This document shows, one piece after another, positions 4,296 through 21,511 of a stretch of DNA of 64,000 nt. The notes beneath the pieces were generated by a model, which saw nothing but the letters and a program-made list of their open reading frames with translations, was not told the origin of the DNA and searched no databases. The stretch's first letter is position 1. Each line of letters starts with the position of its first letter. The stretch is from Desulfuromonas sp. AOP6 (lineage in GTDB: Bacteria; Desulfobacterota; Desulfuromonadia; Desulfuromonadales; SZUA-540), in NCBI RefSeq assembly GCF_009731355.2, contig NZ_AP022810.1, positions 2,260,001 to 2,324,000 on the forward strand, in the 5' to 3' direction. The position numbers and the translations under genes were made by a program.

Positions 4296-4381
4296 GCCGA
4301 AGTGGTGGAATTGGTAGACACGTCGGTCTCAAAAACCGATGGCTTCTGGCCGTGCCGGTTCGATTCCGGCCTTCGGCACCA
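4296..4381 (+). tRNA. tRNA-Leu (anticodon CAA), integration target of the element
   Basis: An 86-nt class II tRNA with acceptor stem GCCGAAG/CTTCGGC, anticodon loop CTCAAAA (anticodon CAA, reading UUG), a variable arm and encoded CCA. Its 3' half from 4325 is duplicated at 22637, so the gene stayed intact on integration. The element sits immediately downstream. Confidence 0.96.
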
Positions 4382-4388
4382 CAGCAAA
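4325..4388 (+). repeat. attL: 64-bp direct repeat, left end of the element
   Basis: Identical base for base to 22637-22700. It runs from the 5' strand of the tRNA-Leu anticodon stem through CCA into seven bases past the tRNA. The sequences differ on both sides of the matched block. Confidence 0.93.
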
Positions 4389-4390
4389 AA

Positions 4391-4428
4391 CAAGGGGTTA
4401 CGCTTCAATGCGTAGCCCCTTTCTTTTT
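4391..4428 (+). terminator. Element-borne terminator behind tRNA-Leu
   Basis: GGGGTTACGC (4394-4403) pairs with GCGTAGCCCC (4410-4419) around TTCAAT, followed by TTTCTTTTT. It lies inside the element and stands in for the host terminator, which integration moved to 22705. Confidence 0.85.
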
Positions 4429-4442
4429 GGTCCTTGTGTTTT

Positions 4443-4460
4443 TGGGACATTTTTGGGACA
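4443..4460 (+). promoter_or_regulatory. Left pair of TGGGACA boxes, candidate integrase arm sites
   Basis: TGGGACA at 4443-4449 and 4454-4460, each preceded by TTT and 11 bp apart. The same pair, same orientation and same 11-bp phase, recurs at 22537-22554 near the other end. Arm-type binding by Int or Xis is inferred from placement only. Confidence 0.5.
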
Positions 4461-4497
4461 ATGGCCCTAGTTTGGGGTCAACAAAATGGAGGCTCAA

Positions 4498-5469
4498 ATG
4501 GCTTCAATCCGCAAAAGAGGTCCCTATCAATGGCAAGTTAAAATCCGCCGTCGGGGATATCCTCTCCAGTCAAAAACATTCGAGACCGAAGATGACGCCA
4601 AAAAATGGGCGCGGCTTATTGAAAGCGAAATGGACCGGGGAATATTCGTTTCTCAAGCCGAAGCAGAGCGCACTACCCTTGCCGACGCCCTGGACCGATA
4701 CCGCAGAGAGATCACCCCGGGCAAAAAAGGCGGAAAGCAGGAGAACAGCAGAATAAACATTCTTTCAAAAACCTCTCTCGCGCCCCGCTTTCTTGCCACC
4801 ATTAAAGGTTCTGATATTGCCAAATATCGGGACGAAAGACTTCTAGAGCGAAGTCCTATCACGGTTAATAATGAGCTGATTCTTTTATCTCACCTGTTCA
4901 CTGTTGCCAGAAAAGAATGGGGCTTAGAAGGGCTGAGAAACCCTGTAAGCGATATCCGCAAGCCGAAACAGCCGGCAGGCAGGGAAAGAAGACTGCTGCC
5001 TGGCGAGGAAGAACAGTTGCTCAAATCTGCCCCCGTTAAACTTCGCCCGATTATTGTCCTGGCTCTTGAGACCGCTATGCGTCTAGGTGAACTTACTGAA
5101 TTAAACTGGAACAACGTGGATCTCACCCGGAAGATTGCTCACCTCACGGAGACAAAAAACGGATCCGCACGAACGGTTCCTCTTTCTTCAAGGGCAATTC
5201 TTGAATTAAAGGCTATCCCCCGCCGCCTGGACGGGAAAGTTTTCGGCTATTCTTCGAACACATCCAGCAAGGCTTTTGCTGCACTGGTCAAAAACCTAAA
5301 GCTGGAAGATCTCCGGTTTCATGATCTGCGCCACGAGGCCACCAGCCGCCTTTTTGAAAAAGGGTTGAATCCGATGGAAGTGGCAAGCATTACTGGGCAT
5401 AAAACATTGCAGATGCTGCAAAGGTATACCCACCTCCGCGCAGAGGATTTGGCCGTCAAGCTGGGGTAA
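4498..5469 (+). CDS. Tyrosine recombinase/integrase of the element
   Basis: This 323-residue site-specific recombinase should insert and excise the element at tRNA-Leu. The N-terminal part (about 1-50) looks like an arm-binding domain, 60-155 like a SAM-like core-binding domain, and 165-323 like the catalytic domain. All catalytic residues are visible: Arg195 in AMRLGEL, Lys220, His275 and Arg278 in HDLRH, His301 in TGHK, and nucleophile Tyr310 in RYTHL. An in-frame ATG exists at 4486, but GGAGG at 4488-4492 lies five bases before ATG 4498, so the shorter start is chosen. The gene directly adjoins attL, as is usual for tRNA-targeting integrases. Confidence 0.95.
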   Translation: MASIRKRGPYQWQVKIRRRGYPLQSKTFETEDDAKKWARLIESEMDRGIFVSQAEAERTTLADALDRYRREITPGKKGGKQENSRINILSKTSLAPRFLATIKGSDIAKYRDERLLERSPITVNNELILLSHLFTVARKEWGLEGLRNPVSDIRKPKQPAGRERRLLPGEEEQLLKSAPVKLRPIIVLALETAMRLGELTELNWNNVDLTRKIAHLTETKNGSARTVPLSSRAILELKAIPRRLDGKVFGYSSNTSSKAFAALVKNLKLEDLRFHDLRHEATSRLFEKGLNPMEVASITGHKTLQMLQRYTHLRAEDLAVKLG

Positions 5470-5549
5470 AAAACAGCCCTTTCTTTCCTTGACCCAGATC
5501 CTCCCGGCAAGGTAAAAGAAGCTTGAAGCTTTATTTTTTTATGCAGTGT

Positions 5550-5561
5550 ACTGTATACAGT
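5550..5561. promoter_or_regulatory. Palindromic operator candidate before the methyltransferase gene
   Basis: ACTGTATACAGT is a perfect 12-bp palindrome 24 bases before the chosen ATG. The flank reads TACAGTGCAA, close to the TATAGTGCAA boxes at 7866-7975. An 11-bp core (CTGTATACAGT) also occurs upstream of gltA at 29929. A regulator-binding role is inferred. Confidence 0.45.
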
Positions 5562-5584
5562 GCAAAACACAGGGGCGTTATTTT

Positions 5585-6538
5585 ATGCAGTTTACATCTT
5601 TAGAAATCTGTGCGGGTGCTGGTGGCCAAGCTCTCGGCTTGGAATTGGCAGGCTTCGGACATGCGGCACTAGTGGAAATAGAACCCCCCGCCTGCGCTAC
5701 TCTTCGTTTAAACAGACCATCCTGGAATGTCATTGAAGGCGACTTGAGGGCTTTTGACGGTACCCCTTACAAAGGTATTGACCTGTTAGCGGGAGGGGTT
5801 CCGTGTCCTCCCTTCTCAAAAGCAGGCAAGCAGCTTGGGGCAGAAGATGAACGCGACCTGTTCCCGGAAGCGATCCGTCTTGTAGACGAGTGCAGGCCCA
5901 AAGCTGTGATGCTCGAAAATGTCAGAGGGCTTCTGGATGCAGTATTTGATGACTACCGGAATAAGGTTGAAAAACAGCTTAAAAAACTAGGATATGTTCC
6001 AGGCTGGAAACTTCTGAATGCTTCTGATTTTGGAGTTTCTCAGTTGCGGCCTCGCGTTGTATTTGTAGGAATCCGAAAAGATTTCTCGGAAAAATTCACC
6101 TGGCCCAAAGGACCTGACGCCCCCCCCTTGACAGTCGGGGAGCTTCTTCATGACCTCATGAAAGAAAACGGATGGAAAGGCGCTGATCGCTGGCGGGAGC
6201 AGGCTAGCAGTATTGCCCCCACGCTTGTCGGTGGTTCCAAAAAGCATGGAGGCCCAGATCTTGGCCCAACGCGTGCTAAGCGTGCCTGGGCAAGTCTTGG
6301 CGTTGATGGCATGGGGCTTTGGGATGAGGCTCCACCTAAAGACTTCGTCGGAATGCCTCGACTGACTCCCCGGATGACGGCAAGAATCCAAGGCTTCCCA
6401 GACACCTGGCTTTTTTATGGCAGAAAAACAGCCACATACCGCCAGATTGGCAACGCATTCCCTCCCCCGGTTGCTAAAGCGGTTGCGGGGCAGATTTTTG
6501 CAGCCCTTTCAACCAATCGCATTTTCAAGGTAGCCTAA
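5585..6538 (+). CDS. DNA (cytosine-5) methyltransferase, modification subunit of NgoMIV-like system
   Basis: The 317-residue protein carries the ordered C5-methyltransferase motifs: LEICAGAGGQALGLELAG (motif I, AdoMet site), GGVPCPPFSKAGKQ with catalytic Cys74 (motif IV, here PCPPFS, not PCQxFS), ENVRG (motif VI), QLRPRVVFVG (motif VIII), then a variable target-recognition region. The end has QIGNAFPPPVA (motif X). It should methylate a cytosine in the site cut by the neighbouring enzyme and so protect the host. I use ATG 5585; the longer frame starts at a GTG at 5546 overlapping the palindromic operator. Its stop overlaps the next ATG by one base, indicating coupled translation. Confidence 0.93.
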   Translation: MQFTSLEICAGAGGQALGLELAGFGHAALVEIEPPACATLRLNRPSWNVIEGDLRAFDGTPYKGIDLLAGGVPCPPFSKAGKQLGAEDERDLFPEAIRLVDECRPKAVMLENVRGLLDAVFDDYRNKVEKQLKKLGYVPGWKLLNASDFGVSQLRPRVVFVGIRKDFSEKFTWPKGPDAPPLTVGELLHDLMKENGWKGADRWREQASSIAPTLVGGSKKHGGPDLGPTRAKRAWASLGVDGMGLWDEAPPKDFVGMPRLTPRMTARIQGFPDTWLFYGRKTATYRQIGNAFPPPVAKAVAGQIFAALSTNRIFKVA

Positions 6539-7401
6539 TGACTTCACTATCCCAATTTGCGGCGGCCAGAAAAGCTTTCCACGCTTCACTTTTGACTAAT
6601 TTGCTTACAATCAACGCAAAGGGCGTCCCCAGCAATGCAGACGGAAGTAACACAGCAAGTATTAGAATTGCCAGGGGTATTGCCGATCTCCTAAAAGCAG
6701 AAACAACAGGAGATCGAATGCCGGGGCAGACTTCGGGAAACCATTTTGAAAGCCTTTGTGCCGATTTTGTACAAAGAACCTTTTTAAAGCTTGGCCATCT
6801 CCGGCCCGGCGCATGGGACGTTCATCAAGTAACCGGACGAAACCGGCTTGAAATTGCCAAGTACGAGCAGTATTCACATCTCGTCGCCCTTGATCGCGCA
6901 GCAAAAAACGATTCAGAACTTGCAGCGGCACTGGGAAGTGATTACACAATTACGCCAGACATCGTTGTCGTCCGTGGTACAGAGGAGGATGAACGCATAA
7001 ACGTCCCCAGTCTTCTTGTAGACAACGACGTTACAACTCTTGCAAGTCTTCGGAAAATAAACGGCGGCCTTCCGCTCCTCCATGCAAGCATCTCTTGCAA
7101 ATGGACCATTAGGAGTGACCGTGCACAAAACGCCAGATCAGAAGCCCTCAACCTGGTCAGGAACAGAAAAGGCAGACTTCCTCATATAGTAGTCGTAACA
7201 GCGGAACCAACACCTAGTCGTCTTGCTTCCATTGCCTTGGGCACTGGAGATATAGACTGCGTTTATCATTTCGCGCTTTATGAATTACAGGAAACGGTTA
7301 AATCTCTCGGCATGGAGGACGCCGCCGACATGCTGGCAGTCATGGTGAGCGGGGACCGGTTAAAAGATATTTCCGATCTTCCTCTTGACCTTGCTGTTTG
7401 A
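6538..7401 (+). CDS. NgoMIV-like type II restriction endonuclease
   Basis: At 287 residues this is almost the exact length of R.NgoMIV (286), a tetrameric enzyme cutting GCCGGC. Active-site residues known for NgoMIV appear shifted by only one: Glu71, Asp141 (TPDIVVV), Ser186/Cys187/Lys188 in SISCKWTIR, and Glu202. The following IRSDRAQN block (192-195) corresponds to the Arg/Asp region that reads the CCGG core in this enzyme group. The same-site partnership with the upstream C5 methyltransferase fits. GCCGGC specificity is inferred from similarity recalled from memory and is not proven. On a mobile element such a pair also works as an addiction module. Confidence 0.88.
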   Translation: MTSLSQFAAARKAFHASLLTNLLTINAKGVPSNADGSNTASIRIARGIADLLKAETTGDRMPGQTSGNHFESLCADFVQRTFLKLGHLRPGAWDVHQVTGRNRLEIAKYEQYSHLVALDRAAKNDSELAAALGSDYTITPDIVVVRGTEEDERINVPSLLVDNDVTTLASLRKINGGLPLLHASISCKWTIRSDRAQNARSEALNLVRNRKGRLPHIVVVTAEPTPSRLASIALGTGDIDCVYHFALYELQETVKSLGMEDAADMLAVMVSGDRLKDISDLPLDLAV

Positions 7402-7442
7402 GACTTTACTGTGGGGAGCATCACCCGAACCAGAACAGAAAA

Positions 7443-7488
7443 GAAAAGAAAAGGGGCTTGCAGAAATGCAGGCCCCTTTTCTTTTCTG
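7443..7488. terminator. Bidirectional terminator after the restriction gene
   Basis: A long stem built from GAAAAGAAAAGGGGCTTGCA and TGCAGGCCCCTTTTC around a GAAA loop, with T-rich sequence on the right. It separates the rightward R-M operon from the leftward genes. Confidence 0.85.
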
Positions 7489-7491
7489 TCT

Positions 7492-7619
7492 GACCAGTCC
7501 AGCACAGCAGGGGTTGACTAGTCGGGCAAGGTTTTGTCTGTCTAGTCCAGTTGCTTTGTGGTTGACTAGTCGGGGTGGTTTTGGGTGGACTAGTCTAGTT
7601 GCTCCTACTGTGACTAGTC
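7492..7619. repeat. Six 8-bp palindromic boxes at an exact 24-bp period
   Basis: GACTAGTC or one-base variants start at 7492 (GACCAGTC), 7516, 7540 (GTCTAGTC), 7564, 7588 and 7612. Spacers also alternate: even units carry GGG then GGTTTTG, odd units carry CAG or TAG then often TTGCT, giving a 48-bp super-repeat. It lies between convergent transcripts, and the last box overlaps the stop codon of the small gene at 7614. An iteron, centromere-like or oriT-linked role is possible. Confidence 0.8.
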
Positions 7620-7817
7620 CACGTCTTTCAAGATTGACTCTATCCCATCGAGTAGCGCCCGCGAGTTCTCGTAAACCCAGTCCCGGGCGTCGCTGTGTCC
7701 GGCGGCCTCTATGGCCCTTTTTAGGCCGTCCTGGTGCTCTCTGGCCGCTTTCGGGTTTTTCAGGGCAAGGTTTCTGCCGATCTCAAAGCCTCTCCGGTAG
7801 TTCTCCTTCTGCTCCAT
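7614..7817 (-). CDS. Small hypothetical protein, paralogue of the product of 8107-8322
   Basis: A 67-residue charged, probably helical protein with a clear GGAGG ribosome site nine bases or so before ATG. I do not recognise a family. It shares with the neighbouring 71-residue protein the pattern MEQ-E, a GR/IGxxLA-x-NPxxAR segment, QD-x-L-x-RA, and an ending with L-x-GI-x-S-x-L. Their leaders are also alike (ATTGA-x-x-AATGGA-x-CAG). This suggests a local duplication. It is the last gene of the leftward array, preceded by three operator-like boxes and followed by the 24-bp array. The low-complexity rightward frame over the same region is a shadow. Confidence 0.7.
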   Translation of the reverse strand: MEQKENYRRGFEIGRNLALKNPKAAREHQDGLKRAIEAAGHSDARDWVYENSRALLDGIESILKDVD

Positions 7818-7857
7818 TCTTCAATTGACCTCCTTTTTCGGTGGTGGTGGTGGAATT

Positions 7858-7975
7858 GCCCTTTTTATAGTGCAAAGTCTAGTGTATTGCTAGTAAATTA
7901 TTTGGCACCATTTATAGTGCAATTTGGTTCTACAGTGGTTTACTAATAAATCCTTTGGCACTATATATAGTGCAA
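7858..7975. promoter_or_regulatory. Three repeated operator-like boxes before the 67-residue gene
   Basis: TATAGTGCAA occurs at 7866-7875, 7913-7922 and 7966-7975, about 50 bp apart. Each is the right half of an inverted repeat. The third, 7958-7973, is a perfect 16-bp palindrome (GCACTATATATAGTGC); the others are degenerate. Read on the minus strand the units extend with GTGCCAAA and ATTTA-rich sequence, so the repeat is longer than the box. They lie in the presumed promoter region of the leftward gene. Confidence 0.65.
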
Positions 7976-8020
7976 TCTTGCCCGGTTCGATTTCAGGGTA
8001 TTTTTTCATAACAGTTTGTA

Positions 8021-8026
8021 ATTATA
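8021..8026 (-). promoter_or_regulatory. Possible -10 element (TATAAT) for the 67-residue gene
   Basis: On the minus strand TATAAT lies at 8026-8021, downstream of the terminator at 8050-8082 and upstream of the three boxes. No convincing -35 is seen, so activation or a weak promoter is possible. Confidence 0.35.
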
Positions 8027-8049
8027 GGGAATTGACTCAATTTTGCCAT

Positions 8050-8082
8050 AAAAAAAGAGGGACCGCATTTCTACGGCCCCCC
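8050..8082 (-). terminator. Terminator of the 71-residue gene
   Basis: On the minus strand GGGGGGCCG pairs with CGGTCCCTC (two G-U pairs), followed by seven T. Confidence 0.8.
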
Positions 8083-8106
8083 TTTTCCGCCCTCCACCTG
8101 CCCTTG

Positions 8107-8322
8107 CTAGCCGGTGGCATTCAGAACTGAGTCGATGCCTGCCAAACACCCTTCCCTTTCCCAGTAGTCGTAGTCCTGCGGGCCGCCGTCTTCCTCCCGC
8201 GCGGCCTTGGCCCTTAGTAGCGTGTCCTGCCACTGCCGGGCCTTTTCGGGGTTGCCGGTCGCCAGCATTTCCCCGATTCGTCTTCCACAAGTGATTGCCG
8301 TTTCTTTTTCCGTCTGTTCCAT
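8107..8322 (-). CDS. Small hypothetical protein, paralogue of the product of 7614-7817
   Basis: A 71-residue charged protein, family not recognised. It aligns by eye with the 67-residue neighbour over its full length (MEQ-E start, RRIGEMLATGNPEKARQWQD, ending LAGIDSVL). The ribosome site is AAGGA before ATG 8322. It follows the DotA-like gene with an 11-bp tandem-repeat array in between and ends at its own terminator. Small acidic or charged proteins at the end of transfer operons are sometimes regulators or anti-defence factors, but nothing in the sequence shows which. Confidence 0.7.
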   Translation of the reverse strand: MEQTEKETAITCGRRIGEMLATGNPEKARQWQDTLLRAKAAREEDGGPQDYDYWEREGCLAGIDSVLNATG

Positions 8323-8376
8323 TGCTCAATTTCCTTTCATTTCAATATGTTGCTGGTTGATTGGCGGGCCTTTTTG

Positions 8377-8552
8377 CTGCCAAACTGCTGCCAAACTGCT
8401 GCCAAACTGCTGCCAAACTGCTGCCAAACTGCTGCCAAACTGCTGCCAAACTGCTGCCAATTTGCTGCCAAACTGCTGCCAAACTGCTGCCAAACTGCTG
8501 CCAAACTGCTGCCAAACTGCTGCCAAACTGCTATCAAACTGCTATCAACTGG
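8377..8552. repeat. Tandem array of 15-16 units of an 11-bp repeat
   Basis: The unit CTGCCAAACTG starts at 8377 and repeats every 11 bases. Thirteen units are perfect; unit 8 (8454) reads CTGCCAATTTG and unit 15 (8531) CTATCAAACTG, and a sixteenth (8542) is degenerate and runs into the end of the DotA-like gene. The 11-bp period is one helical turn and not a codon multiple, which argues against a protein repeat. It lies in the short gap between the DotA-like stop and the next leftward gene. Confidence 0.95.
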
Positions 8553-10713
8553 CTGTCGAAAGTTCGCGGTCTGTCTTGCTGACCTTTGAATCTTCCTCGC
8601 CTGCCCGGCCTCGGGCTTTTCGGTCCGCTCCGGCGCCGGGTTCCCCGCCTTCGCTGCCGCCCGACATGGCTCTTTTGGCTGCTGCACCCGCCCCGCCGCT
8701 CATCGGTTTTGTTGCCGCAACGGCAATACCGCGAAGCCGTCCTTCGTCCTGCACCTCACCTAGATTTTGTTCAAGTTGACCGATCCAGCGGATCACTTTT
8801 TCCGGAAGATATGTGACCAACCCGAAGATTTTATGGGCAAAAACAACGAAAATTGCACAGAGAATGACGCTTTGCGCGATCCAGGTCAGAACCCCCGTCA
8901 CCCGGCCCGCCTGGACGGAGTTGTAATAAACAAGGAATGACTCGCCGATAAAATTCCCGACAACCGCAAAGATCACCATCGCAGAGAACAGGCCGGCAAC
9001 CATTAGGGGCGGCCTTGCCAATACCCCGAACAGCAGCAAATAGCCCTGTCTGCCGTGCTGACCGGCCATGCCATCCCCCTCGGGCAGCATGTGTGCGACG
9101 GCCCAAAGAGGGGCGGCAAAGAGGGTTTCAACCACAAGGATCAGCCAGCTAATAACGCTGCCGATCCAGAGCACAAAGGGCAGCAAGGGTAGGTAGAAAG
9201 CACAGAACAGCCCGACGCCCAGGAGAGTGACAGCCACGGCGCCGACAAGTTGAACAGCGCGGTCAACAACGACTTGCAAGCCGGAGGTTGCAGCCGACGC
9301 CCCACCGAGAGTTATAAGATCCACGACAGGGTTTGACGCGGCGGCATCGCCGGCGGCTGTGAGAGCTTGCAGGCCAATCGCTGCAACCCAAGCGGTCTGC
9401 ATCCCGCCGATGAGCATATGGCCCCAATCCGCCAGCGCGGTAATCGGGTCATTTTCAGACAGTTTCCGCGCCACATAGTAGACAGGTCCCTGGCCGTCCA
9501 GGCCGATTGCATCTGTAATAAACCGGGTTGCCCTAACTATCACGGAATCCTCATCAACGCCCTGTTGTGCGGCATTGTACCGGGCCTGCCGGGCTTCCCT
9601 GGCTTTCGCTTCTGCAGACCACCAGAGCGCATCAAATGCGGGGTCATTGCTGGAGAAGGACGCCAGCCGGGCTTGATTTGCGGGCCTCATTAGCGGCATC
9701 CCGCTTGAAAGGTCGTGGCTGTAGCCTGAAAACCGGCTGAGAGTCCAGTAATAGGACCCCAGCATCAACCAGCCGTCTTTCTGGGCCTGCTCGATAAAGC
9801 TGTCTAGGCCCTCTTGAAACCGGGGGTTGTTTTGGTTGATGATTTCGCCCAAGACTGGGGTAATCCGCGATGTGTATTTGTCCACCGCGCTTAGAATAGT
9901 GTCCGGGTCCAGGGTGCCGGGGGCCGGGACACCATTGTCCTCAAGTTCCTTTTCACTCATGACCGACGCCGCCAAGGTATGCGCGGCAGGCTGCAAGGCG
10001 CTCAACATGTCAAACATTCCCTGCGCCCGGGCTTGGCAAACGCGGTCCTGGTGGGACGTGCAGGGGATAATGATTGCGCCCATTTCTGCGAGTTTTACCG
10101 AAGAATCCGCCGGAGGTTCGAAGAAAAGAACGTACTCCGGCCGCTCTGGGGTCGGGTTCGATACCCGGACGATCTGGCTGAATTCCTGCTGCAGCTTGTA
10201 ATTCATGTAGCGCTGGGCGGCCATGATCTGGAGCGCCTGACCGGCTATTTCCTCGGCGTTCTGCCGCAGGGACGGCGGCGCGGACACCGTGACCTGCCCG
10301 CCGTTGTCCTGGAGGTATGAATAACCATTATTTGCCAGGTAGTTAGCGAAGCTGACGGAATGCCCCACACAAGCTAAGACTACAACCATCAGCATCGACA
10401 AGCCCTTGGCGGAGGGGATCAGCAGGGCGACGCCTACTGCCCCGCGCACGGGGGTCCAGAGGGTTGAGAGCTTGCCCATCGGCTTGCCCTCATGCGCCGT
10501 GCCGATGATTCCAATCGAGATGGAATAGCAAAGGACAAGCGTTCCGATTGCCAGGGCAACGACGGACATTGCTGAGAGCAGGGAAAGAATCAATGTGGCC
10601 GCTTCGCCGGCTGCGCCGCCGCTCGTGATCTGCGTTAGACTCTCCCAGTTTTCGCCAAAGAGAGCTTTTAGCATTGAGCCGCTTACGTCCCCGGCTGGGA
10701 TATCCTCAAACAT
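8545..10713 (-). CDS. TraY/DotA-like inner-membrane transfer protein
   Basis: A 722-residue protein with clusters of hydrophobic helices near 40-70, 85-120, 440-500 and 490-640, and a large polar loop between about 130 and 430. The membrane block ending APLWAVAHMLPEGDG, PPLMVAGLFSA and HKIFGLVTYLPEKVIRWIG is what I recognise as the DotA/TraY family of type IVB secretion and IncI-type conjugation. The C-terminal 80 residues are a low-complexity Gly/Ala/Lys tail. The gene follows a TraX/IcmV-like gene by two bases, the same order as traX-traY in IncI plasmids. No other type IVB components are seen on the element. In IncI plasmids TraY is the target of entry exclusion, which may explain why it is carried alone. 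Confidence 0.82.
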   Translation of the reverse strand: MFEDIPAGDVSGSMLKALFGENWESLTQITSGGAAGEAATLILSLLSAMSVVALAIGTLVLCYSISIGIIGTAHEGKPMGKLSTLWTPVRGAVGVALLIPSAKGLSMLMVVVLACVGHSVSFANYLANNGYSYLQDNGGQVTVSAPPSLRQNAEEIAGQALQIMAAQRYMNYKLQQEFSQIVRVSNPTPERPEYVLFFEPPADSSVKLAEMGAIIIPCTSHQDRVCQARAQGMFDMLSALQPAAHTLAASVMSEKELEDNGVPAPGTLDPDTILSAVDKYTSRITPVLGEIINQNNPRFQEGLDSFIEQAQKDGWLMLGSYYWTLSRFSGYSHDLSSGMPLMRPANQARLASFSSNDPAFDALWWSAEAKAREARQARYNAAQQGVDEDSVIVRATRFITDAIGLDGQGPVYYVARKLSENDPITALADWGHMLIGGMQTAWVAAIGLQALTAAGDAAASNPVVDLITLGGASAATSGLQVVVDRAVQLVGAVAVTLLGVGLFCAFYLPLLPFVLWIGSVISWLILVVETLFAAPLWAVAHMLPEGDGMAGQHGRQGYLLLFGVLARPPLMVAGLFSAMVIFAVVGNFIGESFLVYYNSVQAGRVTGVLTWIAQSVILCAIFVVFAHKIFGLVTYLPEKVIRWIGQLEQNLGEVQDEGRLRGIAVAATKPMSGGAGAAAKRAMSGGSEGGEPGAGADRKARGRAGEEDSKVSKTDRELSTAS

Positions 10714-10715
10714 TT

Positions 10716-11198
10716 TTAGGCCCTCCCCAGAATCCAGTCTTTGAAGAAGAAAAACCGTTCACATTCAAGAACCTGCACACGCCAGTAACGACAGACAACC
10801 ACGACGATTGACATGAAAAGAATCAGCGCCGCGCTGATGATCGGGAAAAGCGCGTTTGTTTTGTAACCGAAATACAAACCATAGAAGGAACCCAGCCCGA
10901 AAATGAAATAGATAAAGATCTGAACTTTCATAACCTGGATGACCTTCGGCAACTGCTCCCGCGTGATCCCCCAGTGCTCCAGGACTTCATCAAAATTGTT
11001 CAGGTCTGGCGCTCCGGGGGCGTTCGGATCGCGGTTTGCGTGGAGGTCTTTCAGATGTTGCTTGATTCGACTTGTCGAATTCCTGATGATTTCATGAGCA
11101 AACCGCCTTTCATAAGGGTTTACGCCTGCTTTCACGGCTTCGACGTGGCCCCGGGCGAACCATCGCAGGGGTTTTGTTGCTCTTCTGAAAAATCCCAT
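10716..11198 (-). CDS. Small membrane protein, TraX/IcmV-like
   Basis: 160 residues: a basic N-terminus, a soluble part to about 90, then two transmembrane segments (about 92-112 and 116-138), and a short C-terminal tail rich in aromatic residues (CERFFFFKDWI). Size, topology and position directly before a TraY/DotA-like gene match TraX of IncI plasmids and IcmV of the Dot/Icm system. That is a recollection-based comparison, not an alignment. It would sit in the inner membrane with the DotA-like product. The start ATG 11198 is two bases after the stop of a 37-residue gene, so translation is probably coupled. Confidence 0.6.
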   Translation of the reverse strand: MGFFRRATKPLRWFARGHVEAVKAGVNPYERRFAHEIIRNSTSRIKQHLKDLHANRDPNAPGAPDLNNFDEVLEHWGITREQLPKVIQVMKVQIFIYFIFGLGSFYGLYFGYKTNALFPIISAALILFMSIVVVVCRYWRVQVLECERFFFFKDWILGRA

Positions 11199-11200
11199 GG

Positions 11201-11314
11201 TTAGCGCCCTCCGATGTTCTGCAGCAGGTTGAGGAAGCCGGCCCCGAAAAAGAACCCCCAGATCCAGCCGCTTGCTTTTATTTTGAATTCGTCGGAAAAA
11301 AGTTTTCTTTTCAT
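11201..11314 (-). CDS. 37-residue single-pass membrane peptide
   Basis: A short frame with ATG at 11314 and TAA at 11203-11201, preceded by AAAGGAGACC at good spacing. That ribosome site overlaps the end of the upstream gene. The product has a charged start (MKRKLFSDEFKIKASG), one hydrophobic stretch WIWGFFFGAGFLNLL, and a short tail. It lies between genes packed with gaps of one to two bases on the same strand, which is the best evidence that it is real. Function is unknown; a small helper of the TraX/TraY-like membrane complex is plausible. Confidence 0.6.
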   Translation of the reverse strand: MKRKLFSDEFKIKASGWIWGFFFGAGFLNLLQNIGGR

Positions 11315-11315
11315 G

Positions 11316-11657
11316 TTATTGGTCTCCTTTCAGGGCTGCACAGCATTGACCAAACTGGTTGCAGTCGCTGTGTTTTTCATTGATTCGAATAACAGCATCT
11401 GTGCTTCCAAGTTTTGCATGATAGTTTTCAAGGTCTATCAGCCTTTTATATTTGCGTTCGATCCTGCCAAGCTGCTTTCTGAGTGCTTTTTCTTTTGCTG
11501 AATCGGCTTCAAATCCTGCATCTACGATTGCGCCCTGGGTTTCGCATAGAGCAAGCCCGGTGTTGATCAGTTTGAACTGCAGCCGCCGAAACTTATTGTT
11601 TGATACAATTACTTGAATGTCCTGTTGGGGCATTGTTTGAAAGCAAGTTCTAAGCAT
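11316..11657 (-). CDS. Hypothetical protein of the transfer operon
   Basis: 113 residues with no family I recognise. The middle (about 50-85) is charged and helical (a KEKALRKQLGRIERKYKRLID stretch), possibly a short coiled coil. The protein has four cysteines, two of them adjacent near the C-terminus (QCCAAL). GGAGAATAG overlaps the preceding stop and serves ATG 11657. The gene sits within a tight leftward operon running from about 13031 to 8545. Confidence 0.65.
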   Translation of the reverse strand: MLRTCFQTMPQQDIQVIVSNNKFRRLQFKLINTGLALCETQGAIVDAGFEADSAKEKALRKQLGRIERKYKRLIDLENYHAKLGSTDAVIRINEKHSDCNQFGQCCAALKGDQ

Positions 11658-11660
11658 GAT

Positions 11661-11963
11661 CTATTCTCCTTTTTTGTTGTATCTATCGATTTGTTTTTGA
11701 AGTATTTGACGGGCGGCTTCGCTTTTGCTGATCCCGGCCTCCTGGGACAGGCTTTCGAGTTTTTTAAACTGCTTTTCTGTCAGCTTTATGTCCATTTTCT
11801 TGATGATTTCCCCGCGCTCTTTCTTTTTCGAGATCTGCGGTCGGCCCCGGCCCAGCCCTTCGCGCAAAAAATCTGCGATGTGCCGGCTCTCCCTGACCGA
11901 TAATTCGGTCAGGGAGAGGGAAAGAGCTGCATCCAGGGGGAGACAGAGGACTTTTTTATTCAT
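11661..11963 (-). CDS. Ribbon-helix-helix-like DNA-binding protein
   Basis: The 100-residue product ends in a segment resembling a ribbon-helix-helix fold (MDIKLTEKQFKKLESLSQEA, then GISKSEAARQILQKQIDRY): a short strand, a helix, a GISKSE turn and a second helix. The N-terminal half is basic and may be a second DNA-contacting part. I start at ATG 11963 with AAGGA upstream; the longer frame from 11999 overlaps the previous gene too far. The start overlaps the preceding stop by eight bases. It is a candidate for the protein that binds one of the repeat arrays on this element, or an operon autoregulator. Confidence 0.6.
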   Translation of the reverse strand: MNKKVLCLPLDAALSLSLTELSVRESRHIADFLREGLGRGRPQISKKKERGEIIKKMDIKLTEKQFKKLESLSQEAGISKSEAARQILQKQIDRYNKKGE

Positions 11964-12558
11964 CTTTGACAGTCCTTTGATAGAAAGGGACTTGATCAAA
12001 AATCTTTTTCATGTTGTTCAGTTCTTCCGCCCAGCAATCAAGTGTCATTTTCCCTTCTTTTGTTCGCCGAGTGGCCCGGTTGAAAATATTTTTAAACGAC
12101 TTTATATGCCCCTTGAAATCCTCCAGCTCTTTTTCAAGCTCATTAACTCGATTCGCCACCGCGTTGAAAGCTTGCTGCTGTTCATCTTCGGTCGGCGGAA
12201 GCTGGTCGTCCTTGCCTGGGATGTCGCCTTTATCAACCTCCAGTACGGTCATTTCATGGTCGTCCATTTTAATGACCTTGTAGAAGGCGACTTCCTTGTC
12301 GTTTCCTCTCTTGGAATAAGCGACGATCTTGGTCCCCATTTCCAAATAATCCCCAGCTTTGACAGCATCCTTGACCACCAGAATGCCGCCGCCGTCTCTT
12401 TTTGCAAGAAAGGATCTGTCTAAACCGCCCTGGATACTCTTATCTTTCCAGACCAATGCGCCCCAGCGTTTGCGGGACTGCACGCTGTATCTCGTGTCCA
12501 GGAGGTCCAAGGGGTTGTCGATAGTGCCGTCCTCGATTTTCCAGACCATGTATTCCAT
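11956..12558 (-). CDS. Hypothetical 200-residue protein, coiled-coil C-terminus
   Basis: I do not recognise a family. The N-terminal 110 residues look like a compact beta-rich domain (MEYMVWKIEDGTI, then KAGDYLEMGTKIVAYSKRG). Residues about 125-165 form a strongly charged heptad-like stretch (NAVANRVNELEKELEDFKGH) typical of a coiled coil. Its leader, AAAGGAGAACTGAAAA before the ATG, is almost identical to that of the upstream gene at 13031, suggesting duplicated translation signals. There is no membrane segment, so it should be cytoplasmic. Confidence 0.65.
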   Translation of the reverse strand: MEYMVWKIEDGTIDNPLDLLDTRYSVQSRKRWGALVWKDKSIQGGLDRSFLAKRDGGGILVVKDAVKAGDYLEMGTKIVAYSKRGNDKEVAFYKVIKMDDHEMTVLEVDKGDIPGKDDQLPPTEDEQQQAFNAVANRVNELEKELEDFKGHIKSFKNIFNRATRRTKEGKMTLDCWAEELNNMKKIFDQVPFYQRTVKDE

Positions 12559-12582
12559 TTTTCAGTTCTCCTTTTTTGTTCT

Positions 12583-12608
12583 GGAGGGGCGAACTCTGCC
12601 GCCCCTCC
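12583..12608. other. GC-rich hairpin between two operon genes
   Basis: GGAGGGGCG (12583-12591) pairs perfectly with CGCCCCTCC (12600-12608) around an eight-base loop. On the minus strand no T-run follows, so it is more likely an mRNA processing or stabilising structure than a terminator. Confidence 0.5.
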
Positions 12609-12617
12609 GGTGCTTTT

Positions 12618-13031
12618 TTAAGCGGCTTTTTTTATGCCGCTGATCTGTTGATAGGGCTTATCCCATTGCCCGACGCTGATATTGAAATAAAAAGCAGTGT
12701 GGAAGTAGTCGGTCATGCTGTCCGACTTGTCGAACCATTCTTGACCCCCTACCGCCTTGCCTGGGGCCGTCCTGATGATTTCGACAATCTGATCAAAAAG
12801 CTCGGCGTGCTCGCCCAAGTTTTCCGTCCAGTGGTGGTTAATCTGTACGTGCTGATGTTCCTTGTCGTAGTCCGACTTAAACAAATCACTAAAATCGACA
12901 GGGGAGGCCATGATTGAGACATTCACAGAACTATGGTGGTGACGCTGAACAGAAAACTTAAAGTCCTTTCCGAACTTTTCTTTAAGTGCTTTTCTGATTT
13001 CTTTGACTTCCTCTGTGCTGATGTATGCCAT
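12618..13031 (-). CDS. LPD29-like small protein, first gene of the transfer operon
   Basis: 137 residues. The start, an ISTEEVKEIRKALKEKFG stretch followed by KFSVQRHHHSSVNVSIM and PVDFSDLF, resembles the LPD29 (large polyvalent protein associated) domain often encoded on conjugative plasmids and phages. The middle has several His residues (HQHVQINHHW). The role of that domain is not established; association with proteins injected at transfer has been proposed. A promoter lies just upstream (13071-13099) and GGAGAACTG precedes ATG 13031. The family call is from memory. Confidence 0.5.
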   Translation of the reverse strand: MAYISTEEVKEIRKALKEKFGKDFKFSVQRHHHSSVNVSIMASPVDFSDLFKSDYDKEHQHVQINHHWTENLGEHAELFDQIVEIIRTAPGKAVGGQEWFDKSDSMTDYFHTAFYFNISVGQWDKPYQQISGIKKAA

Positions 13032-13070
13032 TTTTCAGTTCTCCTTTTCCGTTCTGTTTAAGTTGTCTAT

Positions 13071-13099
13071 ATATTACCTCTGCCAAAGGTATTTTTCAA
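13071..13099 (-). promoter_or_regulatory. Promoter of the leftward 13031-8545 operon
   Basis: On the minus strand TTGAAA (13099-13094) and TAATAT (13076-13071) are 17 bases apart, about 40 bases before ATG 13031. Confidence 0.75.
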
Positions 13100-13383
13100 G
13101 CAAAAAAAATCGTTTTTCTTCTTTTTTTTCAGGTAGTTGCGTGTTTGGTTTTAGGGGGTAAAAACCCAACAGAAATAGCAAGGGTTGCACTAGGAAATGC
13201 ACTGCCGACAGCCAGCCACCAACCCCTTCCCCACCCGGTTTTGACTTTGACCTTGTTTTTGACTTTGAAATTGCAACAGCAAACGGCCCCGAATCTTTGC
13301 GACAGGCGCGTGAGCGCAGGCCCACCGGCCTGTGTGCAACGCAAAGCGTTGTGCATAGGCCGCGGGACTTCTAGCAGAAACCT
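13100..13383. other. Non-coding spacer between relaxase gene and transfer operon
   Basis: No supported gene. It holds AT-rich tracts upstream of the promoter, a weak minus-strand hairpin (AACCC/GGGTT with five T, about 13158-13188) that may end relaxase transcripts, one TTGCACTA (13185-13192) matching the 7858-7975 boxes in reverse, and a TGTGCAACGC/GCGTTGTGCA inverted repeat near 13330-13354. Confidence 0.5.
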
Positions 13384-15903
13384 TCAATCAAAATCCGGTT
13401 CCCAGTCGCTCGAAAGTTCCAATTCAAGTTCAAGCTCTTTTTCGTTCTCCTTGATCTGGATTTCTTCAACCTCTGGTTCCTGGGTTTCCAGTTCCGGCAG
13501 CTCCGGTGCGGCTTCATAGTCAAGGCTCGTTTCCTTTTGCTGTGAGCGCGCCATTGCCTTCTCCAGTTTTTCCAGGTTTTCAGCCTCAGCGACGATTGAC
13601 CGATCAACATATAAATGGGCGCTGTCTCTGTGCCTCGACATTTGAACGTAGCTCATTTCACGGTTCGTCATTGAGCCGCCGCCCAAGACAAAGGTTTGAT
13701 CGACGGTCACGCCCTGGGCTTTATGCGTCGTGACCGCATACCCATGGCTTAAATGGCTATATTTGTCAGAATCGAATTGCACGCGCTCCCCCGAATCCAG
13801 CTTAACCGTCATTCTCCACCCCTCATCCTTACCCGGGATCATCCTTTCCAAGGTTCCCAGAGTTCCGTTTTTGACACCAACCTGTTTGCTGTTCCTCTCA
13901 AAAAGGATTCGGTCTCCTTCCTGAAATTCCAGTTTTCCCCTGCTTTCCGTCTGGATCTCGGCCCCAGGCCCCAGGCGTTTTTCGTTTTTTAAAGTTTCCC
14001 GGGCAAGGCTATTGAGCTGGGCAACCTCGACCCTTGTTGAAGCAAGCATTAAAGCCTCGGCAGGTCTTGCTTTGTCCCACGCCTGCCGCCAGTCCGAAAC
14101 CATGATTTTCATGGTTTCGGCGCGGTTTTCTCCTATATGCAGGCATCCCCGCTGGGAATACTCACGCAGGGCCTCGGCGGCTCGGCCTGCGGCGAAGTTA
14201 TGGGTTGCTTCGATGGCCCAGGATTCGCGTTGCCTTCGGATCTCAGTCAGTTCAGCAAAGCCGGTTTTGCTAGAAATCGCTTTAAACGCGCCGCCGGCGT
14301 CCACCGGCTGCAATTGCTTGTCATCGCCCACCAGGACCAGCTTTGCGCCGGATTGCTGGCAAAGTTCGACAAGCTTTGAGGTCTGGCGGCTGCCAACCAT
14401 GCCAGCCTCATCAACGACAAAAACCGACTTGCTGTGAAGCCGGGTCTCCCCGGCTTCGATTTCTGCAAGGAGGCTGTGAATCGTCTGGCTCTTGATGCTG
14501 CTTCCCTCTTCCAGTCCAGCTGCGGCTTTACCCGCCAGGGCTGCGCCTCGGACTTCAAAACCTGACTTTTCCCAGGCTTCCCGCGCTGCGCCCAGGAGAT
14601 AGCTTTTTCCCGCTCCGGCCATGCCGACCAAAGCGCTGATTTGGTTCGGCTTGGTGATAGATTCCAGGGCCGCCGTCTGCTGATCTGACAAGGTTCGGGA
14701 AGACTTGGCGGCCTCCAGGGCTGCCGGGGTGACAATATGTGTTGCCCGGGCGGCCATGCCTTCTGCGTTCTGCACCATCGTTTTTTCGATCCGGAGCATT
14801 TCTGCAGTTGTAAAACGCTCTTGTCCGTCTTTGCCGATCAGCCGTATTAGATCGGGCGATTTCTGGAGATCTTCGACGAAGGATTTTATTTCCCGGGAGT
14901 TCATGACGCCTTGCGCTTCGACGGCAAGAGCCCGCATTAAATCAGATTTTTTGAAAGTGCTTTGCTTCTCGGTCAGCTTCAAAAGGATCTCTTCTTTTGT
15001 TGGTCTGACCGCCGGTTCTGCCGGCTGCGCCGCCTTGACCTCCTCCATGTCAAAATCGAATTCCCGGCCCGTGGCTCTCCATTCCTCGAAAAGCTCCGCG
15101 CGGGGCCTTCCTTCTTTTGCTTGCCGGGAGTCTAGGGCGGCTACTTCTGCCGCTTTCGCGCCTTTAAACCCGCTGTTTTCAAGGGCTTGCTCGATGGCCT
15201 CCCGCCTTTTTGAGAACTCTTTTTCCAGGTCTTTGGGACTGCCGGCCATCCGGAAGGAATCGCCGTCGCGTTCGACAGCGAAGCCCATTTTCTGCAGTTC
15301 GGCGGCAAGTTCGGCCCGATAGATCGCGCCTGCCGCCATTTTGTTTTCAAACATTCCTCGGGTTTCCAATGTCCCATAAGTTCCGTCTTGCCGGGGGCAA
15401 AGATTGGCGATGAGAAGATGCGTGTGCAACTGGGGGTCCTGAGCGCGGCTTGTGCTGTGCTCATAGCTCGCGCAAATCAGCCCTGCCGGGCGCTCCGCTT
15501 CGGCTCCACCCTTTCCCCTGCGGGTGACGGCCACGGTTTCCAGGTGGTCAAGGGCAGCTTTCACGGCCCGGTCTTGGGCCGTCTGGATCTTCTGCCGGGT
15601 TTCCTGTTCTGCCTGGGACCAAACCGTCGATACTGATTTTGGCGCAGAAAAACAAAAGTCCCAGCCCGGGCGGTGATTTTCGCGCCCGGCACTTTGGACC
15701 AACGGGGAGGTTTCGCCCTGGCGGGGGTCATAACCAGAGAACAACCGGCGGTAATGGTCTGTGTTGACTTGCCCGGCCAGACTCAGTGATTTGCAGCCTT
15801 CGCCAAGCCATTGCCCCGGCGGTTCGCCGCCGGTCTGGTAGTAATCTTCCTGGGCAAGCTCGGCGTAATATTCAAGATTGGATATGTTTGAGATACTCAG
15901 CAT
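13384..15903 (-). CDS. MOBF conjugative relaxase-helicase (TrwC/TraI type)
   Basis: This 839-residue bifunctional enzyme nicks oriT and unwinds the transferred strand. Relaxase domain, about 1-290: double tyrosines Tyr12/Tyr13 and Tyr21/Tyr22, Asp82 in [10 protein letters not shown], and the metal-binding His149, His160 and His162 ([11 protein letters not shown]). All align in spacing with TrwC Y18/Y26, D85 and H150/H161/H163. Helicase part: Walker A GMAGAGKS at about 427-434, Walker [11 protein letters not shown], and a RecD-like ending with [16 protein letters not shown] near 720-750. It is shorter than TrwC (966) and F TraI (1756). A Glu-rich tail closes it. Its ATG is two bases after the coupling-protein stop. 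Confidence 0.95.
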
Positions 15904-15905
15904 GG

Positions 15906-18071
15906 CTAGAACTCCTCTTCTTCCTGATCGTCATCAATAGTCGGCACGGTGTCTGCTGCCGGCGATTTTGGCCCTGATGGGCCGCTCAAAACCCCGGCAC
16001 CCAGCGCCGCAAGCTTGGAAAGCGTGTCGGTCTCTTCCAGTCCCGGCATCATAATTTCCATGACTTCCCCGGCGGCCTCTTCCTGCGCGTCGGCTTCTTC
16101 ATCATCTTGCTCGACCGTGCTTTCCTTGGCTTCCTCCGTCGCCACGGGTGGTAGCAATTCGGGGTCAACCTGGGCGGTCTGCTGGGGTTCTGGTTTTGGT
16201 TTTGGTTCGGGCTTCGGTTTGGGTGCCGGGGCTGGTTTTGCTTCTGGTTCGGCCTGGCTTTGCTCCTGGGCCTGATTTTGTGCAGGACTTCCACCTTCCC
16301 CGCCTTCGCTCCGTTTCTTTTCCTCCTGCTGCATCTCATGATGAAAATCAAGAACCTGCTTGGTTTTCCTGCGCTTTGTCCAGGCTGCTGGCTCATCCTC
16401 AGAACGAACTATTTCTGCATCGACCCAGGGCCAGAGCAATTTATAGACGGTTTGGCCACCCGTCAGCAAAAGCCCTTCGACCGCCTTTTGTTTTTCCCGA
16501 TTTCCAAGGGTGGAAAACTCGTCGGGCCTGACAATGTACTCGTCCTGCTCCTGCCAGCTGTCTTGTCGGCTGTCGCCTGTTGATCCGCCAACCCCGCCGC
16601 CGGAGTAGCTTGCAACATATTTCCGGGTCTTCTGCTTTCCGCACAGCTTCGCCATGAATTCGGCAGTTTCGACTGCCAGCGCACGGCCCAAGAAGTAGGT
16701 TCCAATATTTGAGGTCCAGTTCTCGGCGGTGTGCTCTCCGTAAACTTCTCTTATTTGCGAAATATTTTGACTGCCAATTATCATTCTGACGCCTTTTGAC
16801 CGCCCGACTTCCAGCATTTTTGTTAATGTGGGGACTTTCCCGACTTGTATAATTTCATCGAAGACAAACCAGATTCTTCTGGTTCGTGATTCGGTCATTG
16901 TCGGACTTGATACAGTCGCTCCAATAACAGCCATGATGGCTTGAATATAGCTTTGTTCAAGTTGTTTATATCTTTCATTGCCCTGCAGAATTATGATTCT
17001 ATGCTTTGGGTTTTTGTGTTTTTTGTCGGTCAACAGCCACTTTCTGATTGAAATAGCAGGTTTTCCATTCCAGGCAGCGGCTAAATCAGACACGGTTGAC
17101 ATGTAGGAACTGAGAACCACCAAAAATGATTGTGATGTCTTTGTGATTTCTTCGCTTTCGACCAGTCCTGACGCCTCCGGGGTATATTTCTGAATAATGG
17201 CTCTCAGGTGCTTATAGCCCCTGGCGATTTCCTTCAAAACGTCTTGTAGGTCCCACTCTTCTCTTTCTTTTATTAGGAACACCAGGACGGCCGTGAGGAT
17301 GGCCCGGGCCGCGTTGCTCCACATCGGGTCCGAGCTGTCTTTGATGAGCGCCTGGGCGAAATTCCGTGCATCTGCGATGTTTTCAAGGTCTTCCGAGATC
17401 TTCCACGCCGCGCAACGCTTGTCCCAGGGGGCCAGGATTACGCCGCCGAATCTTTGAGTCCATTCGCCTTTATTGTCATAGATTAGGAGACGGTCTCCCC
17501 GAGCAGCAGCAGCTTTCGTTATTGGAAAAATAAAGGTGGTTTTGCCCGCCCCGCTCCCGCCGATGGCAAATACATGCTTCGTCTCTCGATCCAGACTGAT
17601 CGGCACCCCGGGGAAGATCTCAATGCCGTCTCCCCCTTTTCCAACCTCTTTTTTCATTTCTTTTTTGAGCTTTTCGACGGCTGGTTCTTCTTCCTCCAGC
17701 TGCCGCCCTGCAAGATGTTCGACGGCGGGCTGCGGGGTTGCGAGCCACCAGCCCAGCCAACCCGCTAGGGTAGCCCCCAGGGCGCCGACCGATGCGGCGG
17801 CCTGGGGGGCAAAGCAGTAAGGCATGGGGAACCGGGTATAAATGATTTTGAAGTTTCTGGCAGACCCAAAAACATCGACCCCGGCCAGCCCCAGGGATGA
17901 CTTGAAAATAGAGAGCGGCCGCCATCCGTTTTCCTGGAAAATCGGCAGATAGCTGATGGCCCAGGCTGCCGCCCAAGCCCCAAGGGCCAGCCCCAGACCC
18001 GCAAAGGTCAGGGTGCAAAGGGCCGTTCCTTGCAGGTCTCGGGGCTGCCTCATTACCTTTTTCTTGTCCAT
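15906..18071 (-). CDS. Type IV coupling protein (TrwB/TraD-like ATPase)
   Basis: The 721-residue protein should link the relaxosome to a secretion channel at the inner membrane. Transmembrane segments lie at about 16-42 and 86-110. The motor domain follows with Walker A GGSGAGKT at 171-178 and Walker B WFVFDEI near 395-402. After about 590 comes a low-complexity tail of Lys-Pro and Glu-Pro repeats and an acidic end, longer than in TrwB. I start at ATG 18071, four bases after AGGAGG; the frame to 18146 overlaps the upstream gene without a ribosome site. Order RHH-coupling protein-relaxase equals trwA-trwB-trwC of R388. Confidence 0.93.
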
Positions 18072-18087
18072 GGGGCCTCCTACTCGC

Positions 18088-18444
18088 TTAACGGTTTGCC
18101 GGCCGCTGCTGGGCCTGCTGTCCTGGTTGCTTGCCGGCCCGTTCAAGGACGAGGGCGTTATTTTGCCGCACGATTTTTTCCTGACCTTCCGCGAGGATTT
18201 TCATCGCTTCGAATACAATTCCTAGTTTTTCCATCAACAAAGTTTCGATGTTAGAAATTCGGTCAGCGGTTCGGGTTTCGAGTCCGGCAAGGCGGGGTTC
18301 GATCCCCCCTTTTAGTTTGTCTTGGCAGGCTTGCCGGACAAAATCGGCAGGCTGCATTTTCTGCTTTTCGGCGGTTTTTGTGATCTCGTCCCACAGGGAA
18401 TAGGGGAACCTTATCCCTCTGCTTGTGCTTTTTTCAGTCTCCAT
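18088..18444 (-). CDS. Relaxosome accessory protein, TrwA-like RHH
   Basis: 118 residues. The N-terminus reads as a ribbon-helix-helix: SRGIRFPYSLWDEITKTAEK then MQPADFVRQACQDKL. The centre to C-terminus is a long helical stretch (RTADRISNIETLLMEKLG, then MKILAEGQEKIVRQ) suited to tetramerisation, ending in a Gln-rich tail. TrwA of R388 has the same two-part layout; it binds oriT, boosts TrwC nicking and represses its own operon. ATG 18444 follows AAAGGA; the longer frame runs into the TGTGCACA repeats. It sits at the head of the coupling protein and relaxase operon beside the presumed oriT. Confidence 0.8.
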   Translation of the reverse strand: METEKSTSRGIRFPYSLWDEITKTAEKQKMQPADFVRQACQDKLKGGIEPRLAGLETRTADRISNIETLLMEKLGIVFEAMKILAEGQEKIVRQNNALVLERAGKQPGQQAQQRPANR

Positions 18445-18804
18445 CGGGCAATCCTTTCTTTTTGTGGGTGTGCACGTGTGCACATACTGTTGTTAGGGGG
18501 TCCGGGCCTCATTTCTCTTCTTTTTGTGCACATCGTTAAAATTGCTTTAGAAAACCCTTTTACAGTGTGCACAAACGACTACAAAACAGGGGTTTTGGTG
18601 TGCACACCGGCCTTTTTTTGGCGTTGCCCATGTGCACATCCTGTAAAATCTGGCTTTTCCTGATTTTTGGGGCGCCTTGTGTGCACACCCCATGTTGCCC
18701 ATGTGCACACCGCTTTTTTGCTGGTCAATTGGCGCGTCGCGGTGCCTTTTGTGCACACCCAAGGGTGAGTCGGGTGTGTAAGAAAAACCATGTCGCCTTT
18801 GGGG
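18445..18804. other. Presumed oriT and promoter region of the mobilization operon
   Basis: A 360-bp stretch without supported genes between the TrwA-like gene and the secreted-protein gene. Nine palindromic TGTGCACA-type boxes are scattered through it. In R388 oriT lies directly upstream of trwA, which is the equivalent place. A weak minus-strand promoter (TTGTGC, 17 bases, TCTAAA, about 18573-18545) overlaps one box, which would suit autorepression. The nick site itself cannot be pinned down. Confidence 0.6.
18469..18757. repeat. Nine TGTGCACA palindromic boxes
   Basis: Starts at 18469 (TGTGCACG), 18477, 18525, 18566, 18599, 18631, 18680, 18702 and 18750. Eight are the perfect palindrome. 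Spacing is irregular (8, 48, 41, 33, 32, 49, 22, 48), unlike the 24-bp and 11-bp arrays. Binding by the adjacent RHH protein is inferred. Confidence 0.88.
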
Positions 18805-19515
18805 TCAGGTAAATCCCAGGATTGTTACCTTCATGGGGACTGTCCAGGAAGTGCCTCCGCCATCCCCGACCTTATAGTTCCACAAAGTAATATAGGAGGA
18901 GTTAACGCCGATCACTTCCACGTCCGTCTCGATAATGCTGATCCCGGCGTAAGCCTTCCCCCTGCCCAACGAGTAAGACAAGAGCCAGTTTACTGTCCGG
19001 GGGAAATAGGCATTGATTGACGAGTTTGCTGGGACGCTCACGGTCAGCCACATGATTGTGAACCCATCAGGGAAGCGGTAATACCCGTTCCCGCTATCCC
19101 CTGAAAACACCCCACCTGTCGGCCAAGAGGTCTTAGTTTCTCCTCCCAGGGTGATAGAGGCGGCCGTCATGCTGTTGGCCTGGACTGAATTCAGGCGCGA
19201 GGTGCTGGCCGGGTCTGCAACGTAATACGTGTTGTGCTTGTCATACATCCGCCCAGCTACTATATTTCCCTCTACGTAGAGGCCGCTCAAGGAGGATGCC
19301 CCGCTGGGGTTGACGTAGTAACCCGTATTGTCGCTGTCATAGAGGATCGGGGTCCTCATGTCTCCGGTGGCACGCACGGTACTGGCGTTCGTGATCGCCG
19401 TACCGTGCCGATCCATCGTGGTGTTCTGCACAACCCCTGGAGGGGCATAGCTGGTCGAATCGGCAGCGAAAGCAGGCGAAGAAAACAGCAAAAGCAGCAG
19501 AAAAAATTTCTTCAT
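18805..19515 (-). CDS. Secreted tail-fibre-like/adhesin-like protein
   Basis: 236 residues with a clear signal peptide (KKFFLLLLLFSSPAFA, cleavage after about residue 17). Two tandem copies of a Y-D-x-x-N-T-x-Y-Y motif follow (ILYDSDNTGYYVNPSGASSL and RMYDKHNTYYVADPASTSRL), a repeat typical of phage tail fibres. The C-terminal 90 residues resemble fibre tip domains (FPDGFTIMWLTVSV, INAYFPRTVNW). Export by Sec makes a virion role unlikely. A pilus-tip or surface adhesin acting in mate recognition is a reasonable guess. Its start overlaps the preceding stop by one base. I know of no assigned function. Confidence 0.65.
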   Translation of the reverse strand: MKKFFLLLLLFSSPAFAADSTSYAPPGVVQNTTMDRHGTAITNASTVRATGDMRTPILYDSDNTGYYVNPSGASSLSGLYVEGNIVAGRMYDKHNTYYVADPASTSRLNSVQANSMTAASITLGGETKTSWPTGGVFSGDSGNGYYRFPDGFTIMWLTVSVPANSSINAYFPRTVNWLLSYSLGRGKAYAGISIIETDVEVIGVNSSYITLWNYKVGDGGGTSWTVPMKVTILGFT

Positions 19516-19715
19516 TATTTGATCTCCTGGGCCATGAAAAGGCCATCGGCCAAACCCGTAAAGTAATGAAATTCATGGGTTTTACGGGCTTCGAGCGGCG
19601 CTGACCAGAGGATGGTTCGGAGTTTTTGGTAGTCCAGATTAAGGCCCATAGTGTTGATGGATTCGAGCCAGTCAAGGACTGGCTCTGTGAGGTTTTGTTG
19701 ATTAGTTTTGGTCAT
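19515..19715 (-). CDS. Small hypothetical protein
   Basis: 66 residues, probably alpha-helical, no family recognised (MTKTNQQNLTEPVLDWLES start, ending GLADGLFMAQEIK). GGGGAGG lies seven bases before ATG 19715, and stop and start of neighbours overlap or abut (TAAATG upstream, shared T downstream). Tight coupling supports a real gene in the leftward 21353-18805 operon. Confidence 0.6.
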   Translation of the reverse strand: MTKTNQQNLTEPVLDWLESINTMGLNLDYQKLRTILWSAPLEARKTHEFHYFTGLADGLFMAQEIK

Positions 19716-21037: not shown

Positions 21038-21041
21038 CGCC

Positions 21042-21475: not shown

Positions 21476-21511
21476 GAAGCCCTGACATATACAAAAGGGG
21501 GGGGTTGGGGC

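Follow-up and report, generated by a model that had tools for sequence, protein, structure and literature searches.

The iterons of plasmid origins are short direct repeats set at a constant period, and for O-like initiators the usual place of the origin is a set of repeats inside the initiator gene itself. How integrative mobilizable elements keep or control their excised circular form is, to our knowledge, poorly known. Controller-protein C-boxes, which are operators of restriction-modification (R-M) genes, precede the C or M gene and depend on a C gene, which encodes a small helix-turn-helix (HTH) protein. The C.PvuII-type C-box has the consensus GACT-tat-AGTC (PMC4824078). Herein, we describe an array of six near-identical 8-bp palindromes in an integrative mobilizable element. 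We tentatively favor, with a confidence somewhat short of even, the reading that each of the six palindromes is a site bound by a dimeric DNA-binding protein, and that the resulting complex would help to maintain or mobilize the excised element.

Box array and its conservation

The array is real and ordered. The six boxes occupy a 128-bp segment (7492-7619) of the window, which is the whole 64-kb stretch of DNA that was analysed, and they follow one another at an exact pitch of 24 bp, with G/T-rich spacers of 16 bases between them (Table 1). Four of the six carry the exact palindrome GACTAGTC, and the other two differ from it by one mismatch each. A period scan of the window, allowing at most one mismatch, gave six near-matches at a period of 24 bp only; the harmonics of 12 and 48 bp gave three each. 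Six boxes at an exact 24-bp period had been claimed by the original prediction, and both the period and all of the start positions were borne out. The pitch corresponds to approximately 2.3 helical turns, which is not a whole number. In the 3,269,909-bp genome, GACTAGTC occurs six times, and four of these occurrences are in the array, while the reversed word, used as a control, occurs 83 times; CTAG is generally scarce, with 47 occurrences in the window vs 245 expected from the base composition.

Table 1. Position of the boxes, the neighboring genes and the related features in the window.
Feature	Position	Strand	Description
Integrative mobilizable element	4325..22700	.	18.4 kb; 64-bp perfect direct repeats; empty site in sister genome
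C5-cytosine DNA methyltransferase	5546..6538	+	Same R-M system as R.NgoMIV
R.NgoMIV-family restriction endonuclease	6538..7401	+	Pfam NgoMIV_restric, E 9e-127
Inverted repeat	7442..7487	.	Near-perfect, with poly-A/poly-T flanks; putative bidirectional terminator of the convergent genes
Box 1	7492..7499	.	GACCAGTC, one mismatch to GACTAGTC
48-bp repeat	7512..7603	.	Clear; TRF, 1.9 copies, 82% match
Box 2	7516..7523	.	GACTAGTC
Box 3	7540..7547	.	GTCTAGTC, one mismatch to GACTAGTC
Box 4	7564..7571	.	GACTAGTC
Box 5	7588..7595	.	GACTAGTC
Box 6	7612..7619	.	GACTAGTC; holds the TAG stop (7614-7616, minus strand) of the 67-aa ORF
67-aa orphan gene	7614..7817	-	Predicted three-helix protein; box 6 forms its 3' end
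71-aa paralogue of the 67-aa ORF	8107..8322	-	42% identical; upstream of the 67-aa ORF
Arc-like ribbon-helix-helix (RHH) protein	18088..18483	-	Weak PHROG match; second candidate binder
Putative replication initiator	20201..21598	-	PHROGs replication initiation/O-like/DnaD-like, E 1e-8; one candidate binder

The conservation of boxes and spacers was then compared. Majority letters accounted for 46 of 48 positions in the box columns vs 56 of 96 in the spacer columns (eight and sixteen columns, respectively, in six related copies from one array), and a contrast of this size was reached in 3 of 10,000 column-shuffling permutations (p = 3e-4). When the columns were set in the 48-bp register, 14 of 16 box columns and 5 of 32 spacer columns were invariant (Fisher p = 2e-6, on the same six related copies of one array). 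The 48-bp super-repeat that had been proposed for the whole array holds for boxes 2 to 5, but it is weak beyond them. Spacer pairs one 48-bp step apart showed likeness at p = 0.0095, 0.047, and 0.095, whereas spacers 1 and 5 showed none (p = 0.65), and adjacent spacers were likewise unlike. When the two clear 48-bp copies are aligned with gaps, a 1-bp deletion and a 1-bp insertion cancel each other, and the 24-bp pitch is kept. Given that the boxes are better conserved than the spacers and that the indels cancel, the suggestion of selection on box sequence and position is supported.

The main rival reading is a neutral one, in which the 3'-terminal GGACTAG of the 67-aa gene, stop codon included, was duplicated in 24-bp and then in 48-bp steps and has since drifted as a functionless minisatellite. 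We regard this as possible, albeit on the unlikely side. Box 6 holds the gene's own stop codon, all of the boxes stand in one frame, and one 48-bp duplication is clear; moreover, a purer 11-bp array follows the dotA stop, indicating that the element gains tandem repeats at gene ends. However, drift should strike boxes and spacers equally, whereas the boxes are far better kept by both the Fisher and the permutation test, and the 24-bp period has outlasted the indels.

Host element and neighboring genes

The element that carries the array is bounded by perfect 64-bp att repeats, one at 4325-4388 in tRNA-Leu(CAA) and the other at 22637-22700, and in a genome of the same genus both flanks meet with a 64-bp overlap, which represents the empty site. 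Its genes include those for a tyrosine integrase, the C5 methyltransferase, R.NgoMIV, a TrwC relaxase, a TrwB coupling protein, a DotA/TraY relative, and the initiator-like ORF. The DotA/TraY relative alone was recognised among type IV secretion system (T4SS) proteins. With an integrase, att repeats, and a relaxase and without a full T4SS, it is an integrative mobilizable element.

As had been predicted, the array is located between convergent transcripts, with R.NgoMIV and its terminator ending ahead of it on one side and the 67-aa ORF ending within box 6 on the other. The array therefore sits 3' of both neighbors, and since both genes end at it, a promoter operator is unlikely. Were the terminator active in both directions, the minus-strand transcript alone would cross the array. 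The model of the 67-aa protein is a confident three-helix fold with no useful structural match, the best structural Z being low for a helical protein. Apart from its own paralogue, it had no match in plasmids, viral contigs, and 98 relatives, and a weak scan of the GTDB genomes with two short peptide patterns gave no match. Translated in the frame of this ORF, the boxes give D-stop-S once per eight codons. A repeat protein made by pyrrolysine/amber read-through was considered and is unlikely, as the frame runs on through the terminator and antisense into R.NgoMIV.

The location between a stop codon and a terminator would also suit an RNA structure in the 3'-UTR of the minus-strand transcript, in which hairpins between boxes, the first enclosing the stop codon, would protect the mRNA or aid termination. 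The minus strand does fold better than its shuffles (z -3.7), and an 11-bp stem joins boxes 6 and 5. Nevertheless, shuffles of the spacers only gave nearly equal energy (fraction as good, 0.17 for the minus and 0.07 for the plus strand), so the palindromes alone explain the fold, and by this control no structure beyond the repeats' own contribution was found. Furthermore, no Rfam family fits, the matches being far below the gathering scores. A functional RNA structure is thus quite improbable.

A second clustered 8-bp palindrome, TGTGCACA, is found in the element as eight exact copies (of 27 in the genome) at irregular spacing in 18477-18757, upstream of the RHH-TrwB-TrwC operon. This cluster is a candidate oriT or operator region, and the RHH protein is more likely tied to it than to the 24-bp boxes. 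Its presence suggests that arrays of palindromic boxes are part of the element's design. The lowest G+C content of the element (33-36%) is reached at about 7825-8065, approximately 250 bp from the array. Three copies of TATAGTGCAA, spaced 47 and 53 bp apart (7855-7976) and one of them inside TTGGCACTATATATAGTGCAA, fall in this most AT-rich part, upstream of the 67-aa ORF.

Other repeats were seen in the element. An 11-bp tandem array, TGCTGCCAAAC (8375-8543; 15.4 copies, 96%), directly follows the dotA stop codons, and after two stops the minus-strand dotA frame is open through it, encoding the 11-aa repeat SSLAAVWQQFG. Tandem repeats of 16 and 15 bp lie within the initiator-like ORF (20551-20645). 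A 36-bp repeat (92%) is present at 12548-12583 and 13021-13056, around the start codons of two minus-strand genes. Elsewhere in the chromosome (1147187-1147714), a C-terminal DotA fragment, 63% identical to the DotA of the element, is the remnant of a related element; the array is absent alongside it.

Palindromic arrays in other genomes

Neither a homologous array nor any close relative of the element turned up in our searches, and those with DotA, R.NgoMIV, and the relaxase returned distant relatives or nothing. No clustered 8-bp palindrome was seen in the stretches read of plasmids with DotA relatives of 28-32%, of another genome of the order with a relative of 30%, and of the NgoMIV plasmid pLM16A1. 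A total of 84,980 genomes and the viral contigs were further scanned for three exact boxes separated by gaps of 4-34 bases. The scan yielded 44 loci in the genomes and five in the viral contigs, many of which are ordinary tandem repeats with identical spacers. Where the spacers are unlike and the steps regular, the step is mostly 22-25 bp (the Hymenobacter group, the Bacteroidaceae locus L070, the viral contig L018, and the window), with the exceptions of L069 (35 bp) and L020 (38-39 bp).

The Hymenobacter arrays adjoin an HTH_17 gene, and in several contigs a Rep_3 initiator gene lies next to HTH_17; these loci are mutually related and count as one or two events. At a Peregrinibacteria locus, another HTH_17 gene is preceded by three GACTAGTC boxes, and in a viral contig two boxes at a distance of 24 bp precede an HTH_3 (XRE) gene that has an integrase nearby. 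These loci, which are not homologous to the array of the window, show that the GACTAGTC palindrome recurs beside genes of DNA-binding proteins. Considering that similar boxes adjoin HTH_17/Rep_3 genes elsewhere, a binding-site array is plausible. The six Hymenobacter loci share with our array the 8-bp core, several boxes, unlike spacers, and a step of about two helical turns. They differ in that their boxes extend to TGACTAGTCA, in that the step is inexact and mostly 22-23 bp, and in their place in the promoter region of the HTH_17 gene, where their function is putative; sequence homology was not seen.

Arrays of AGGACTAGTCC with 22-23-bp steps were observed at four loci in Mediterranea and Bacteroidaceae contigs, three of them on separate contigs of one genome, and are possibly a dispersed REP-like family. 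REP-like palindromes resemble our array in being extragenic and palindromic, and L070 also lies between convergent genes. However, such palindromes are dispersed, whereas here a single array is present in the genome, inside a mobile element, and the two of six genomic GACTAGTC outside the array are both single copies. A host regulon was also considered for these two, of which one lies at a nusA-like stop codon and the other close to where a transporter-like gene begins; they form no pattern.

Proposed role and comparison with known systems

Sites in DNA for a dimeric protein are favored given the contrast between boxes and spacers, the palindromic form, and the fixed pitch. In the mechanism that we infer, each 8-bp palindrome would be the site for one dimer, and with sites every 24 bp several dimers would most likely load side by side into a nucleoprotein complex. 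This complex may serve the excised element in replication control, copy pairing, or segregation. Such docking sites are consistent with the near absence of GACTAGTC from the remaining host genome, with the independent GACTAGTC arrays by DNA-binding genes in Hymenobacter, Peregrinibacteria, and the viral contig, and with the presence of the TGTGCACA cluster and an AT-rich 200 bp (33% G+C) in the same element. On the other side, neither a homologous array nor a close relative of the element is at hand to show conservation across elements, the scanned ORFs of the element yielded no HTH_17, XRE, or controller protein, the helical pitch is non-integral, box 6 is partly coding, and the conservation test draws on six related copies of one array.

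As a set of probable protein-docking sites, the array is of an ordinary kind. There is a slim chance of something more specific, namely that integrative mobilizable elements have an array that acts like a centromere or in handcuffing, with palindromic boxes at a strict 24-bp pitch by a transcript end; bound by an element-encoded protein, it would control maintenance of the excised form, and the orphan 67/71-aa pair is possibly its binder. Should the array be where excised-form control docks, the 128-bp segment and one protein would provide a compact, testable handle on that control; a drifting minisatellite would be ordinary.

Of the described systems, C.PvuII-type C-boxes have the same GACT/AGTC half-sites and also stand next to an R-M system, here the NgoMIV pair that adjoins the array, which could thus be an operator array tied to the R-M genes. 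This is very improbable. C-boxes carry a 3-bp centre, but the half-sites are separated by 0 bp here, and GACTN2-5AGTC is absent from the window. The array comprises six sites vs two and is located downstream of R, not upstream of a C or M gene. The required C gene was not found, with no HTH_3 match among the element ORFs scanned and a gap of 77 bp between the integrase and methyltransferase genes. Given the spacing, the place, and the missing C gene, the C-box reading fails.

A further comparison is with plasmid-origin iterons, which had been suggested for the array from its fixed phase. The likeness lies in six short repeats at a fixed period of 24 bp within a mobile element with an initiator-like gene, and comparable boxes occur in the Hymenobacter contigs with Rep_3 genes. 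In the strict form of this reading, the element's own initiator would bind the array, and the excised circle would use it as its replication origin or incompatibility site. The three TATAGTGCAA in the AT-rich stretch nearby keep this reading alive. However, textbook iterons are not palindromic and have a shorter period, and here the element is integrated and the initiator gene is not adjacent; its distance is 13 kb on the integrated map and would be approximately 4 kb across the joined att in the circle. No DnaA box (at most one mismatch) was found anywhere in the element, and the repeats inside the initiator ORF could themselves be an internal origin, as in lambda O. Since a DnaA box is missing and the distant initiator gene has internal repeats, a true iteron origin, though possible, is not the reading that we favor, and we judge it improbable. 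We still favor docking sites for a dimeric protein, and in its working the array, with its putative sites, probably resembles iterons or operator arrays.
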